From: Gammaproteobacteria bacterium
GTDB taxonomy: Bacteria > Pseudomonadota > Gammaproteobacteria > Pseudomonadales > Pseudohongiellaceae
DNA length: 41,584 nt
Direction of reading: 5' to 3'
Assembly (NCBI GenBank): GCA_030831125.1
Contig: JAURLQ010000079.1
Coordinates: 1 to 41,584 of the forward strand
The number at the start of each line of letters is the position of its first letter. Position 1 is the stretch's first letter. The position numbers and the translations under genes are program-made. Shown piece after piece: positions 23,566-30,022 of the stretch. The notes beneath the pieces are model-generated. The model saw only the letters and a list, made by a program, of their open reading frames with translations, was not told the origin of the DNA and did no database searches.

Positions 23566-23705
23566 ACTCCTTTCCTGCCCAGGGGAAAATAATCAGGGTT
23601 GACTTCATGTCTTCAGCCCGGTGGCGGGGTGCCTGACTTTGCGCAAGGATATGCCCACTGTATTGCAGTACCATATCCGGCATACCAGGACAGCATGAGA
23701 CCGTG

Positions 23706-25517
23706 ATGGAGAAGAAGCACCAGTTCAATTTTGCCTATACGCTGATAGCCCTGTGGGGCATTCTGCTGTTCCAGTACTACTTTGGTCCGGCAACCCGCCA
23801 GGCTGACATCAGTTACAGCCAGTTCGAAACCTACCTGCAGGAAGATCGCATAAACCGGATTGCAGTTGATGATCGTTATATAAGGGGTGAATTCCGCCAA
23901 CCCATTGATGGAAAGACCACTTTCATCACGCCAAGACTTGATCCGGCTCTGGTTGCCACGCTCGAAGACTATGATGTGGAGTACACAGGCATTATCCGCG
24001 ACACTTTTCTGGCCAATCTGATCTCGTGGATAGCACCTGCCATAATTTTCATCAGCCTGTGGATGTTCGTGTTCCGTCGCTATGCAGACAAGCAGGGCCT
24101 TGGCGGCATGATGAATATCGGCAAGACCAGCACCCGCGTACTGGTGGAAACCAATACTGGCGTCTCCTTCGATGATGTTGCCGGCGTTGACGAAGCCAAG
24201 ACAGAGCTGGTGGAAGTAGTGAACTTCCTGAAACAACCGGCAGACTACAGCAAACTGGGTGCACACATTCCCAAAGGTGTACTGCTGGTTGGCCCACCCG
24301 GCACCGGCAAGACACTGCTCGCCAGGGCAGTAGCAGGACAGGCTGGCGTTCCCTTCTATTCCATCAGTGGCTCTGAATTCATTGAACTCTTTGTTGGTGT
24401 TGGCGCAGCCCGTGTGCGTGATCTTTTCGAACAGGCCAAAAAGCATGCACCAGCCATTATTTTCATTGACGAACTGGATGCACTAGGCCGGGCCCGTGGC
24501 GTTGGTAACATCAGCGGTGGACATGATGAACGTGAACAGACTCTCAATCAGCTGTTGGCTGAAATGGATGGTTTCAGTCCTTCTTCAGGCGTGATTATCC
24601 TGGCTGCCACCAACCGACCTGAAATACTTGACCCCGCCTTGCTCCGGGCAGGCCGCTTTGACCGTCAGGTGCTTGTGGACAGACCTGACAAGATTGGGCG
24701 TGAGCAGATACTGCAGGTGCATATCCGCAAAATCCATACAGGAAAATCAGTGGATCTGAAAGTCATTGCATCACTGACAACCGGTTTTACCGGAGCTGAT
24801 CTCGCCAATCTGGTCAATGAAGCTGCATTGCTGGCAACGCGCAGAAAGGCCGATAAAGTTGAAGCAGCTGATTTCACCAATGCGATTGAGCGAATTATCA
24901 CCGGGCTGGAGAAGAGAAACCGCCTGATCAACCCGCATGAAAAAAGCATTGTTGCCCATCATGAGAGTGGGCATGCCCTCACAGGGATGCTGCTGAATCC
25001 GGACCAGGCAATACACAAGGTTTCAATAATTCCGCGAGGTGTTGGCACTCTGGGTTACACGATACAACGTCCCACCGAAGATCGCTTTCTGGTGAGTCGG
25101 GAGGAGCTGTCCAATCGTATCGTTGTGCTGCTGGGCGGGCGTGCTGCCGAAGCCCTGATTTTTGGCGACATCACTACTGGTGCAGCAGATGATCTGGCCC
25201 GGGCGACAGATATTGCCCATGCCATGGTGACCCGATACGGCATGAGTGAGGAGATCGGTCTGCTTTCCCTTGAAGAAAAACAACCGATGTTCCTGAACAA
25301 TGAAGCTCGTGACAGGACTACCGATTACGGTCAGGAAGTTGCCCATCAGGTGAGCACAGCGGTAAAGACCCTGCTGGACAATGCCTTCAAAAGGGCAACT
25401 CAAATCCTGCAGGCCAACAGGAATATTCTTGAAGAAATGGCCAAAGCCCTGCTTCAGCAGGAAACACTGGATGAAAGCCAGCTGGCAGAGTACAAGAAGC
25501 GACTCAATGCAAGCTGA
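23706..25517 (+). CDS. FtsH-type AAA+ zinc metalloprotease (second FtsH paralogue)
   Basis: A membrane-anchored ATP-dependent protease of 603 residues. Two transmembrane helices (about 10-26 and 104-124) flank a periplasmic segment. The AAA+ module has Walker A GPPGTGKT (196-203), Walker [12 protein letters not shown], the pore loop [11 protein letters not shown] and the second region of homology [21 protein letters not shown]. The protease domain has HESGH (H419, E420, H423) and the third ligand in [12 protein letters not shown]. It is complete and looks active. Canonical ftsH in this class sits with rlmE and folP; here the neighbours are metY and an HD-domain gene 29 bp downstream, so it is probably an accessory paralogue. 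GTG at 23703 is an alternative start. Confidence 0.9.
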
Positions 25518-25546
25518 GCTGCTTACAGGCAATACGAGGACCAAGC

Positions 25547-26281
25547 ATGAATGATGACAACAGACCCTGGCCGCAGGCAGGCTATAACCGCATGATCATG
25601 CCATCACCCATAGCCTGGATCGGCACGGGAACACCAGATCCGGAACCTGCACTGGTCCCGCTGATGGATGACTCCAATGTATTCATGATGGGCGACAACC
25701 CTGCCCTGCCTCGCATGCCAGAAAGGCCGACGCTTATCGATTTTTTCAAATACCGTTTCAATCCGATAGCGGTGAATCACCTGTTGGGGTCGGCAAAGCG
25801 GGCCATGGATGATGGCCATAATGACAAGGTCATCATGGCTTGTCTGCTGCATGATGTTTCCAATGGCTGTTTTGTCCGTCCTGATCATGGTTATTGGGGC
25901 GCTCAGATGATTGCCCCCTATGTGGACGAGGAAGTGGCATGGGCAGTGAAATACCATCAGGCCCTGCGTTATTTGCCCGATCCTGAAGTCGGTTATGAGT
26001 ATCCTGAAAGCTACTACAAATTTTTCGGGCAAAATTACCAGCCTCCTGCCTATATCATGCGTGATGCACAGTACGCCAGGGAACACAGGTGGTATATGAC
26101 GGCACGACTGGTCACCATGTATGACATCTACTTTTTCGAAAAAATTGAACCAATAGCGCCTGAATATTTCAGCGATGTTATTGCGCGCAGTTTTCGTCAG
26201 CCACCGGAAGGATTGGGACATGACGACTCGCCAAGCTCCCACATGTGGCGTACCATGATCTGGCCCAACAATTTTCTCTGA
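25547..26281 (+). CDS. HD-domain protein with PhnZ/MIOX-like diiron ligand pattern
   Basis: A 244-residue protein without signal peptide or membrane segment. Residues about 72-200 form an HD-type helical domain. Candidate ligands, by eye, are H78 (NHLLGSAKRA), H102-D103 (LLHDVSN), H114 (PDHGYWGAQMI), H137 (KYHQALRYL) and D193 (MYDIYFF). The order H, HD, H, H, D, and the HQALRYLPDP segment, resemble the mixed-valent diiron oxygenases PhnZ and myo-inositol oxygenase rather than phosphohydrolases. The spacing from HD to the next His is shorter than in PhnZ. The substrate is unknown. It starts 29 bp after the FtsH paralogue and is probably co-transcribed with it. Confidence 0.65.
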   Translation: MNDDNRPWPQAGYNRMIMPSPIAWIGTGTPDPEPALVPLMDDSNVFMMGDNPALPRMPERPTLIDFFKYRFNPIAVNHLLGSAKRAMDDGHNDKVIMACLLHDVSNGCFVRPDHGYWGAQMIAPYVDEEVAWAVKYHQALRYLPDPEVGYEYPESYYKFFGQNYQPPAYIMRDAQYAREHRWYMTARLVTMYDIYFFEKIEPIAPEYFSDVIARSFRQPPEGLGHDDSPSSHMWRTMIWPNNFL

Positions 26282-26404
26282 GCTGCAGACAGGAACAAAC
26301 ACTTTCAGATGCAACTTCACCTGATGACCAGGGTCAATCAGGCAAGGAAGTGTGCGCTGATACCTGTCTGGCAGAACCTACTCACCTTTCGCCTGGAAAC
26401 TCCC

Positions 26405-26971
26405 ATGGACATATCGCCACTTGACGACAACGAGCTCGATTACCTCAACGACATGATATTCAAGTACGGGAGTGATGCAGCTGTAGGAGATGTCTCTGAA
26501 CTGGATGGTTTCCTCACGGCAATCGCTTCCGGTCCACAGGATGTCCAACCTGATGCCTGGTACGCTGAAATCTGGGGTGGAGAACTGCCCGTTTGGGAAG
26601 ATGCCAGTGAACAGACATCTTTCACTACGCTGGTTAACCGCATGATGGGTGTTATATCCGGCACCCTGCTTGAAGATCCCGACAATTACGAAGCACTGTT
26701 TCTTGAACAGGAAATGGGTGACAGGTTTTTTCTTGTAGTTGATCCCTGGTGTGCAGGCTACCTGCGCGGTATCGGCATGAATGCAGAAAGCTGGGGCGAA
26801 ATGCCTGAGGAGCTCATGGCAGAGCATCTGTACCCGGTGATGGTTTTTGCCGGAGATGAAAATGATGAAGAACTGCAGTCATTGACTGAAGAAGCGCTGG
26901 AAGACCTGCAACAAAGGCTTGAACCGGCTGCCTGTGCCATTCACGCCTACTGGCACGGCCAAAGGCAATAG
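26405..26971 (+). CDS. UPF0149 (YecA/YgfB-like) family protein
   Basis: A strongly acidic protein of 188 residues. The opening LDDNELDYLNDMIF with VSELDGFLTAIASGP, then WGGELPVWED, a long acidic helix and FLVVDPWCAGYLRGI are the hallmarks of the UPF0149 family (YecA, YgfB). The YecA C-terminal SEC-C zinc-binding motif (CxCx8CH/C) is absent, as in the shorter members. The function is unknown; YgfB of Pseudomonas influences gene expression. ATG 26405 matches the family start; the frame is open to 26309 but the extra 32 residues lack family features. It lies 123 bp after the HD gene and may belong to the same operon. A terminator follows at 27013. Confidence 0.85.
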   Translation: MDISPLDDNELDYLNDMIFKYGSDAAVGDVSELDGFLTAIASGPQDVQPDAWYAEIWGGELPVWEDASEQTSFTTLVNRMMGVISGTLLEDPDNYEALFLEQEMGDRFFLVVDPWCAGYLRGIGMNAESWGEMPEELMAEHLYPVMVFAGDENDEELQSLTEEALEDLQQRLEPAACAIHAYWHGQRQ

Positions 26972-28776: not shown

Positions 28777-29889
28777 CTATTGCTGATCAGCCTGGCCCTG
28801 GTTTCCGATCTGCAGGCTCTGGTCCTGTGAATTGCGTGAGAACATCGACGCACTTTCCTCTTCACATTCATAAGGAAAGATTTCCGTGTTATCTGCAACA
28901 CGTGGAAATGTCATTCTCGCCTGGTAGGGCCGTGACAGATACACCGGGTCGGTCAGTGTGTATTCGTAGACCAGCGACAAGCCATCCTCGGAAAGACTGA
29001 AACGCTCGGTCAGGGTTTTCTGGTCGCTCGACGGAATGTCAGCACCCCGCCCAAGCGGTTGTACTGCACTGCCAATACCCCAGCCGGATGCCGGAAATCC
29101 CGTGCTCTGCAGAACAACAGCCGCACCATCCCGCCTGCCGGTAATGGTCCCGAACAACCCCTCATGACTTGAGCTAACAGCTGTGCCGTCAAGCGGCACG
29201 GTTCTGTCCACTTCCCAGGGCTGGTTGTAGATGGTAATAGCATTGCTTGCGACAGAAATCCTGAACAGATAGGGCGCATAGAACATATCAGGAAAACTCA
29301 TCGGTTCGCAGGTATTAGCTGGCGACTCTCTTGGATCATAGCTGTCTCTTGCAGCCTGACCGGCTTCGCTCAGGGGCAGCGGCTCATGGTTCTGTGGTCG
29401 CTGCACGCCAATCTGGTAAATGCCATTCATTGCTGCAGGATCACTGGCATCCAGATTGCGGGTTGCACTGACAAGTTCAGGGCGTCGCGCAGAAGCCATG
29501 GCGTACTGACGACCGCTTGCATCAGTAAAGTTGGAAGAATTCACAAAGCGGAAACCCGGCTGCCGGTTTGGCGCTGCAATGACAGTAATCCGGTCGCCGC
29601 TACGGAAGGTATCACGCTCAATACCCATGGCACGCAAACCGGCGGCAGCCTGTGATTCAATTTCCCAGCGCTGGGGCTCTGATTCCTGGGCAATTCCATC
29701 GACATAACTGATACCGTCTATCACCATGGAGGCATGAGGACTGCGCAACTTGAAGTCCACCACGGTGCCGCGAATCTCAATGGACTTGCTGGTATCAAAG
29801 TGGGTTGTTACGGCGTGGTGTGCAAGGGCAGTTGAGGTCAATACCGTGCACAATGTTGCAGCCAGCACAAATCTGGTTCTTTCTGACAT
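28777..29889 (-). CDS. Secreted DUF6152 family protein
   Basis: A 370-residue exported protein. A signal peptide (MSERTRFVLAATLCTVLT..) is cleaved after ALA, leaving HHAVTTHFDTSK. The first about 110 residues (IEIRGTVVDFKLRSPHASM) match the DUF6152 family of small periplasmic proteins. The remainder is an extra region ending in an Asn/Gln-rich tail, with no recognised domain. DUF6152 proteins often occur near PQQ dehydrogenases and other periplasmic oxidation genes, but none adjoins it here. The ATG at 29889 is preceded by GAGG six bases away and is preferred over the upstream ATG at 29901. Function unknown. Convergent with argH. Confidence 0.75.
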   Translation of the reverse strand: MSERTRFVLAATLCTVLTSTALAHHAVTTHFDTSKSIEIRGTVVDFKLRSPHASMVIDGISYVDGIAQESEPQRWEIESQAAAGLRAMGIERDTFRSGDRITVIAAPNRQPGFRFVNSSNFTDASGRQYAMASARRPELVSATRNLDASDPAAMNGIYQIGVQRPQNHEPLPLSEAGQAARDSYDPRESPANTCEPMSFPDMFYAPYLFRISVASNAITIYNQPWEVDRTVPLDGTAVSSSHEGLFGTITGRRDGAAVVLQSTGFPASGWGIGSAVQPLGRGADIPSSDQKTLTERFSLSEDGLSLVYEYTLTDPVYLSRPYQARMTFPRVADNTEIFPYECEEESASMFSRNSQDQSLQIGNQGQADQQ

Positions 29890-30022
29890 GGAACACCTCA
29901 TTCCCGGAATATTGAAAACTGACTGTAGGGCCGCACAGCGATCAGGTCAACCCGGGGCAAGCAGACAAGTTAGCGTGTTTCTGTGCAGGCAGCTGAATCA
30001 TTCACCTGGACGTTGCACTTTG

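Follow-up and report, generated by a model that had tools for sequence, protein, structure and literature searches.

A probable diiron oxygenase of the HD superfamily, related to PhnZ and TmpB, encoded by a gammaproteobacterium

Introduction

Is the HD-domain protein encoded at this locus an oxygenase or a phosphohydrolase? The first-pass annotation had argued for an oxygenase, largely from the spacing of the putative metal ligands. According to the accessible sections of a review (PMC8177086), the known HD oxygenases are myo-inositol oxygenase (MIOX), PhnZ and TmpB, and more are thought likely. The same sections state that neither sequence nor crystal structure suffices by itself to tell nuclearity, cofactor, chemistry and substrate, that the phosphatase YqeK has a set of six ligands too, that YqeK and HD-GYP proteins have extra histidine ligands as well, and that some HD hydrolases use iron. 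Another paper (PMC10574752), in its accessible sections, describes four PhnY/PhnZ-type phosphonate pathways, one of them a fungal fusion. Our literature search, with subscription journals mostly outside its coverage, returned papers that included reviews, work on SAMHD1 and on another diiron family and, among those listed, none on the family described here; the annotation's statement that the family has no known substrate agrees with our findings.

We conclude, with a probability of about 0.65, that the protein has the HD fold, belongs with the PhnZ/TmpB/MIOX branch of these enzymes and is a probable diiron oxygenase, whose substrate is other than the known aminophosphonates.

Results

The gene and its surroundings

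The window, that is, the whole 41,584-nucleotide stretch of DNA that we analysed, contains the gene and the following adjoining features.

25547..26281, plus strand: HD-domain metalloprotein gene, 244 aa, predicted from sequence and model to encode a probable diiron oxygenase (ORF; Pfam HD, 5.3e-5; model and fold search)
25536..25539, plus strand: GAGG, a plausible ribosome-binding site 7 bases 5' of the ATG (read in the sequence)
23703..25517, plus strand: FtsH-family protease gene, directly upstream with a 29-base gap (TIGR01241, 763.8 bits); context only
26309..26971 (ORF as listed), plus strand: UPF0149 gene, directly downstream (PF03695, 5.5e-32); context only

The HD reading frame runs from an ATG start through to a stop codon, and its conservation across homologues rules out a spurious ORF. 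In the UPF0149 frame, the PF03695 match begins at residue 46, and an in-frame ATG at 26405 is the likelier start. By Pfam, the two genes adjoining the HD gene are the FtsH and UPF0149 genes, and no hydroxylase gene stands beside it. The genome, as assembled, holds a single copy of the HD gene and no detectable member of the bridging family described below.

On contigs C134 and C138 the genome has two more FtsH matches, strong but partial, and the FtsH gene of the window may be a second copy; no FtsH gene was found beside the HD gene among the scanned neighbours at other loci, which are a part of all neighbours. Elsewhere in the window, positions 28777-29901 (minus strand) encode a DUF6152 protein; at locus L085, the gene that directly follows the HD gene is of this DUF as well.

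Relatives and putative metal ligands

A search of GTDB genome contigs found at least 533 stretches that encode a relative, and we kept the best 80, all at least 54% identical. Among these best 80 of 533 are loci from Novosphingobium, Sphingomonas, Caulobacteraceae, Rhodospirillales, uncultured gammaproteobacteria, Steroidobacteraceae, Nevskiaceae and Pseudonocardia, many of them from metagenome-assembled genomes (MAGs). Within 57 related genomes, matches of at least 45% identity occurred in the window's own genus and two other genera of its family, the other matches being weak. A scan of 369 genomes of the class gave, apart from the window's own genome, nothing but weak matches, which fell within residues 63-223. 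Viral contigs (single-protein scan) and a plasmid collection (protein mode) returned no match, and PHROGs held no family for the protein. We then aligned the window protein with 73 of the best 80 loci (alignment A2, the core family), leaving out L082, L090, L094, L098, L102, L109 and L142 by hand. Its putative metal ligands are as follows.

25778..25780, plus strand: H78, ligand 1, invariant in 74/74 rows; aligns with the first PhnZ/TmpB ligand (protein and family profile)
25850..25855, plus strand: H102-D103, the HD pair, ligands 2 and 3, invariant in 74/74 rows (profile alignments)
25886..25888, plus strand: H114, ligand 4, invariant in 74/74 rows (profile-profile alignment)
25955..25957, plus strand: H137, ligand 5, invariant in 74/74 rows (profile-profile alignment)
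26123..26125, plus strand: D193, ligand 6, invariant in 74/74 rows; aligns with the last invariant Asp of bridging family A3

All six residues are therefore shared by the window protein and its 73 homologues (54-76% identity), and they are also invariant in a 17-row alignment that includes paralogues at 41-44% identity; given this invariance in both alignments, we regard the ligand pattern as exceeding chance.

A script check placed the six residues where the first-pass annotation had put them and returned the same spacings, namely 24, 11 (D103 to H114), 23 and 56. As for the PhnZ values that the annotation gave, 24, 21 and 24 were borne out by counting on an alignment to a PDB chain (residues 34, 58/59, 80 and 104). 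The fourth, 57, comes from PhnZ-like loci rather than from that chain: it occurs in five of the six (L150-L155), the other giving 58 in a row where the pattern started one residue early. (In three of these six rows the script picked the wrong first histidine, giving 8 or 11 in place of 24.) The likeness of the HQALRYLPD segment to the PhnZ motif also stood, since a profile-profile alignment sets it against HVAAKRYLCA of PhnZ-like proteins with one gap.

The spacings themselves are a weak argument for an oxygenase, and we rejected them as a diagnostic: a histidine 24 residues before the HD pair is found in all 18 RelA/SpoT-type domains as well, and the D-to-H spacing is 11 in the window protein versus 21 in PhnZ. 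In HD-GYP domains the histidine lies 32 residues before the pair (13 of 14). The invariant positions of bridging family A3 are spaced 24/10/23/40, and the closeness of 56 to the 57 of PhnZ is therefore probably coincidental.

Predicted fold

The annotation had called for an AlphaFold model to be compared with PhnZ and MIOX, and we made that comparison. The model has a mean pLDDT of 92.4 and a pTM of 0.89, and in it H78 lies within the helix 73-88, the HD pair falls just after the helix 93-101, H114 opens the helix 114-125, H137 lies within 128-140 and D193 follows 183-192. In a Foldseek search against the PDB, all ten matches at E<=0.001 were PhnZ or TmpB (2.8e-5 to 5.7e-4), the next match being at 0.36 and that to MIOX weak, at 0.81.

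VIA-align 2, which aligned 588 chains and listed 50 entries, put TmpB first (Z 13.7, rmsd 3.6, 156 aligned), followed by PhnZ (Z 12.1-13.2, rmsd 3.1-3.5, 147-154 aligned) and then MIOX (Z 8.2 and 7.8), with every other row among the 50 listed at 7.0 or below. The aligned range spans model residues of about 60-220 and includes all six ligands; together with the helix positions, this suggests that the six side chains may converge in the model. The lower rows include a tRNA-processing enzyme (7.0), a predicted HD hydrolase (3ccg, 6.9), YqeK (8wmy, 6.1), Ddi2 (5.7-5.8) and the HD-GYP protein DvhD (5.7 and lower). By the tool's own guidance, Z scores lower than 8 (lower than about 13 in helical bundles) may reflect a mere common arrangement, which makes the rank of MIOX weak evidence; PhnZ and TmpB stand clear of the other matches to the predicted model.

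The fold list bears on the possibility that the scaffold serves some other chemistry, such as that of a lyase or of a hydratase like Ddi2, or belongs to a non-catalytic metal-binding protein. The superfamily already has a hydratase in Ddi2, which uses zinc and carries Thr in place of the last Asp (PMC8177086, accessible sections), Ddi2 does appear among the listed entries, and the residues around the ligands of the window protein differ from those of PhnZ/TmpB and of A3 alike. However, the last Asp is invariant in the core family and the gap in fold score between Ddi2 and PhnZ/TmpB is large, and we consider this explanation improbable.

Kinship by sequence profile

Pfam recognises only the general HD domain in the window protein. 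Its two best NCBIfam models are the phosphonate HD oxygenase models TIGR03276 and NF049941, both far under their cut-offs, and the TIGR03276 score means little by itself, since in the scan of the class long HD proteins of different kinds (frames of 449-754 aa, one of them at an HD-GYP match) scored a similar 19.5-22.1 bits. Searched against PDB sequences, A2 found TmpB first (7.6e-4) and PhnZ second (0.014-0.018), followed by glutamate synthase (0.28) and Lmo0812 (0.48).

By hhalign, A2 matched the PhnZ-like set with 97.4% probability (8.9e-12), with ligands 1-5 inside the alignment, versus 59% (9e-5) for the HD-GYP control and 14.5% (0.0019) for the RelA/SpoT HD control; after cropping to the motif, these controls held 14 of 20 and 18 of 20 loci. 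The PhnZ-like set itself matched HD-GYP at 80% and RelA/SpoT HD at 83%. Two further controls were sought, and neither yielded a profile: a YfbR type (PF13023) matched in 0 of 36 genomes, and for YqeK (TIGR00488) 8 of 94 genomes had a match, with none over the cut-off.

A family of about 190 aa, which we call bridging family A3, is linked by profile to both sides. It comprises 28 of the 32 weak-match loci L017-L048, with L019, L037, L047 and L048 left out as short or long ORFs. It matched A2 with 99.2% probability (3e-19), all six ligands aligned, and the PhnZ-like set with 99.0% (8e-18); against the PDB its profile found PhnZ (5.2e-13), TmpB (3.5e-11) and then a dGTPase-like chain (0.0042).

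In a tree with HD-GYP and RelA/SpoT rows, the core family and a Tat-like branch (see below) fell on one side of a branch (100/100), with the RelA/SpoT HD domains apart. PhnZ, HD-GYP and the core family each leave the bridging family on long branches in an unsettled order, and the tool warns of a false joining of PhnZ and HD-GYP. With its long branches, the tree cannot separate the core family from HD-GYP, and it was not used for placement.

These results can be set against the main rival reading, in which the protein is a phosphatase or phosphodiesterase with six ligands, like YqeK or HD-GYP, and shares only ancestry with PhnZ. The general HD match in Pfam, the existence of six-ligand hydrolases (PMC8177086, accessible sections) and a tree compatible with HD-GYP kinship would all suit such an enzyme. 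Against it, all three known oxygenase families top the listed fold rows, the family profile ranks TmpB and PhnZ first and matches HD-GYP and RelA/SpoT HD weakly, and the HDIG model scores 11.5 bits, below its cut-off of 27.6; together with the residues considered in the next section, this leads us to regard a phosphohydrolase as unlikely. Because the fold and profile rankings favour PhnZ and TmpB, the kinship with oxygenases holds, and spacing is not its support. The annotation's preference for an oxygenase over a phosphohydrolase thus survives on kinship (fold, profile against the PDB, and profile-profile alignment with two controls); its spacing argument is weak, and the tree does not set the family apart from HD-GYP. 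We favour the oxygenase reading on this kinship, with the chemistry as the conditional part of it.

Residues around the ligands and class marks

Three positions outside the ligand set distinguish the core family.

25754..25756, plus strand: R70, invariant; it precedes the first His in a segment that holds the YxxE loop in PhnZ/TmpB, with the exact alignment uncertain, as two alignments gap differently
25862..25864, plus strand: N106, where PhnZ/TmpB-like proteins have the second His of HDxxH; N in 64/74 rows
25967..25969, plus strand: R141 (H137+4), invariant in 74/74 rows, at the same offset as the Lys of the PhnZ-like HxxxKRYL (alignment and script)

The HDxxH histidine, a mark of PhnZ/TmpB that is present in all six PhnZ-like loci, is absent from the 74 rows of the core family, where position 106 is N in 64, M in 6, V in 2, and C and I in one each. 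At H137+4, the script found Lys in five of the six PhnZ-like loci (the remaining one being a row in which the pattern starts a residue early) and Gln in all 28 rows of A3; the gapped profile alignment sets R141 over the Arg of KRYL rather than over the Lys. From the PhnZ structure paper, both this Lys and the HDxxH histidine are said to contact the substrate.

The YxxE loop is likewise absent. The window protein reads YRFN at 69-72 and has no Glu at 61-77, and in the 74 rows the six most frequent residues at 69 and at 72 do not include Glu: position 69 is L in 32, Y in 20, C in 10, H in 6 and others in the rest, and position 72 is mostly G or N. One alignment sets the TmpB Glu over 72 and another the PhnZ Tyr over F66 and Glu over 69, so that the loop alignment is uncertain. 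In PhnZ and TmpB, YxxE is the substrate loop (PMC8177086, accessible sections). Taken together, these comparisons read as a second sphere replaced relative to PhnZ/TmpB around ligands that are kept, which would suit the same metal site with a different substrate.

Membership of the PhnZ or TmpB family was accordingly rejected, as the YxxE loop, the HDxxH histidine and the curated scores all fail: TIGR03276 (PhnZ) gives 22.9 bits (21.1 in the class scan) versus a cut-off of 214.6, and NF049941 (TmpB) gives 18.3 versus 300. These same absences and scores make us think it very improbable that the protein is a true, divergent phosphonate oxygenase of either type acting on a hydroxyphosphonate, even with PhnZ and TmpB as its nearest named relatives and with an R141 that could hold a phosphonate from the offset of the PhnZ Lys.

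The marks of other classes were also sought. A conserved Arg, usually three residues before the first His, marks phosphohydrolases (PMC8177086, accessible sections). In the core family Arg is not conserved there, position 75 being T in 45 rows, A in 20, V in 4, S in 3, and Y and G in one each of the 74; the invariant Arg sits eight residues before the first His instead. That speaks against a phosphohydrolase, but 27 of the 28 A3 rows do carry this Arg, which is a point for one and weakens the mark for both readings. The extra His that HD-GYP proteins carry beside the last His is also missing (position 138 is Q in 71 rows and E in 3), as is the resulting HH pair, and the window protein has no GYP triad. 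No MIOX Pfam model matched, PF01966 being the only one reported at E<=1.

Gene neighbourhoods of the core family

The neighbourhood survey that the annotation had suggested gave a mixed context, which suggests carbon catabolism without proving it. Neighbouring genes were called by a simple longest-ORF rule, under which the largest cluster (the HD gene itself) holds 50 of the 80 loci and, at 19 loci, a cluster of longer minus-strand ORFs (for example at L115) overlies the HD gene; as the rule hides genes, the counts below are lower bounds.

An SBF-like transporter gene, forming one blastp cluster, adjoins the HD gene in 7 of the 80 loci (best 80 of 533), on the same strand and with its end -13 to +42 bases from the estimated HD start. 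The loci are L069, L071, L073, L075, L114 (a Sphingomonas MAG), L131 (a Nevskiaceae MAG) and L133, and the assignment comes from Pfam on one member (PF13593; L049, on the same contig as L069) and from the cluster for the rest. The first four are not independent, since all come from the window's own genus (contigs of G003, G009, G008 and G001). In six loci, five from Novosphingobium and one from a Sphingomonadaceae MAG, a thiolase-cluster gene on the same strand ends 53-218 bases upstream, itself preceded by a gene of an acyl-CoA synthetase or 3-hydroxyacyl-CoA dehydrogenase cluster (Pfam on one member per cluster). Neighbours seen at single loci include a tannase (L084), an AMP-binding enzyme (L139) and GTP cyclohydrolase I (L125), and at L113 an RPE65-type gene precedes the HD gene and one for a TPP enzyme follows it. 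Among the scanned neighbours of core-family genes, which are a part of all, this RPE65-type gene stood alone, with no TauD-, PhyH-, Rieske- or JmjC-type gene and no phosphonate gene, a further point against a phosphonate oxygenase.

A Tat-like sister branch

All ten paralogues at 41-56% identity (L012, L013, L014, L015, L062-L065, L067 and L068) have DRRx(F/L)(L/I/F) close to the N-terminus, then a hydrophobic stretch, then A-D-A, an arrangement that we judged by eye to be Tat-like; of the three genera with matches of at least 45% identity among the 57 related genomes, the third has only this type. A scripted pattern, RRx[FLI][LIFMV], also matched within the first 60 residues of six A2 rows; we presume that these are trimmed rows in which the pattern picks up RRHLL, the stretch at the first ligand His, as it does in L008-L011.

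Near several of the Tat-like loci lie genes for a DUF3500 protein (3 loci), a 491-537 aa protein without assignment (3) and a protein of metallo-beta-lactamase fold (6), and many of these neighbours also start with signal-like segments, again by eye. A LigB-type dioxygenase cluster (Pfam on one member) lies near four loci. From these sequences, the paralogues and their signal-bearing neighbours could possibly form a periplasmic HD enzyme system. If so, the branch would represent an exported HD oxygenase, of which none is described in the accessible sections of PMC8177086 or PMC10574752.

Iron oxygenase genes beside the bridging family

At no fewer than 10 of the 32 bridging loci (L017-L048), a gene for a non-heme-iron oxygenase lies directly upstream on the same strand. 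These are of TauD type (L018, L024, L028, L030), PhyH type (L026, L040, L041, L043), Rieske type (L022) and JmjC/cupin type (L019), assigned by Pfam in six (L024, L028, L026, L041, L022, L019) and by blastp cluster in the other four. The scanned neighbours cover part of the loci. Other neighbours scanned were an abhydrolase, saccharopine dehydrogenase, CN hydrolase, HlyIII, aldolase II, GCV_T, ketoacyl synthase, MFS, IlvD and a TPP enzyme, and two had no match. An upstream oxygenase gene is the kind of pairing that the reviews, in their accessible sections, describe for PhnY/PhnZ and TmpA/TmpB (PMC8177086, PMC10574752), and we regard these pairs as candidate two-step oxidative cleavage modules.

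Discussion

New here are the Tat-like sister branch, the adjacency to an SBF-like transporter gene, and the bridging family with its upstream iron oxygenase genes. By analogy with PhnZ and MIOX (PMC8177086, accessible sections), the core enzyme might work as follows. Its four His and two Asp would hold a two-iron centre, which in a mixed-valent Fe(II)/Fe(III) form would bind the substrate on one iron and O2 on the other; an Fe-superoxo species would then take a hydrogen from a C-H bond, and the adjacent bond would be cleaved or oxidised with no outside reductant. The substrate may be a small organic anion, which the invariant Arg residues (R70, R141 and possibly R187, R214 and R235) would hold; in a phosphohydrolase such residues could equally hold phosphate. 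The known aminophosphonates are disfavoured because the YxxE loop and the HDxxH histidine are absent, and the role would probably be catabolic, on an imported carbon compound.

More tentatively, and with considerable doubt, these proteins could constitute a further class of HD diiron oxygenases whose role lies outside the metabolism of phosphonates. Its members, from sphingomonads, Caulobacteraceae, gammaproteobacteria and Pseudonocardia, would cleave an imported organic anion oxidatively and have a Tat-exported periplasmic sister. The class would be kin to a bridging family in which HD oxygenases are paired with iron oxygenases of several unrelated types (TauD, PhyH, Rieske, JmjC), each pair acting as a general module that first hydroxylates and then cleaves. 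Core-family proteins are soluble candidates whose ligands are invariant and whose conserved residues form a set of their own; if they use O2, the reach of HD oxygenases extends beyond phosphonates and inositol. With its varied partners, the bridging family offers testable two-gene modules for new bond-cleaving chemistry.

Comparison with known systems

The closest named system is TmpB, (R)-1-hydroxy-2-trimethylaminoethylphosphonate oxygenase (6NPA), which is the first PDB match by both profile and VIA-align Z and has the HD fold and the six-ligand set in common with the window protein. Unlike TmpB, the window protein lacks the YxxE loop, the HDxxH His and a TmpA-like neighbour, has a shorter stretch from the HD pair to the next His, and has extra N- and C-terminal parts. 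PhnZ (4MLM, 4MLN, 4N71, 4N6W; TIGR03276) shares the fold, the ligands and a His-containing segment ending in RYL, and differs in the same ways, as well as in the score against its curated model given above. MIOX (2HUO, 2IBN) has the HD fold with the same order of ligands (PMC8177086, accessible sections) and comes next in the VIA-align ranking, with the lack of a Pfam match and the weak Foldseek score on the other side. HD-GYP, RelA/SpoT HD and YqeK likewise share the HD fold, the first two matching the core family weakly by profile and YqeK (8WMY) standing well down the fold list. Finally, bridging family A3 has six ligands that align with those of the core family and a similarly short HD-to-His stretch, but it has Asp (26/28) where the core family has Asn, Gln rather than Arg at His+4, the Arg at -3, and often an iron oxygenase gene as its partner.
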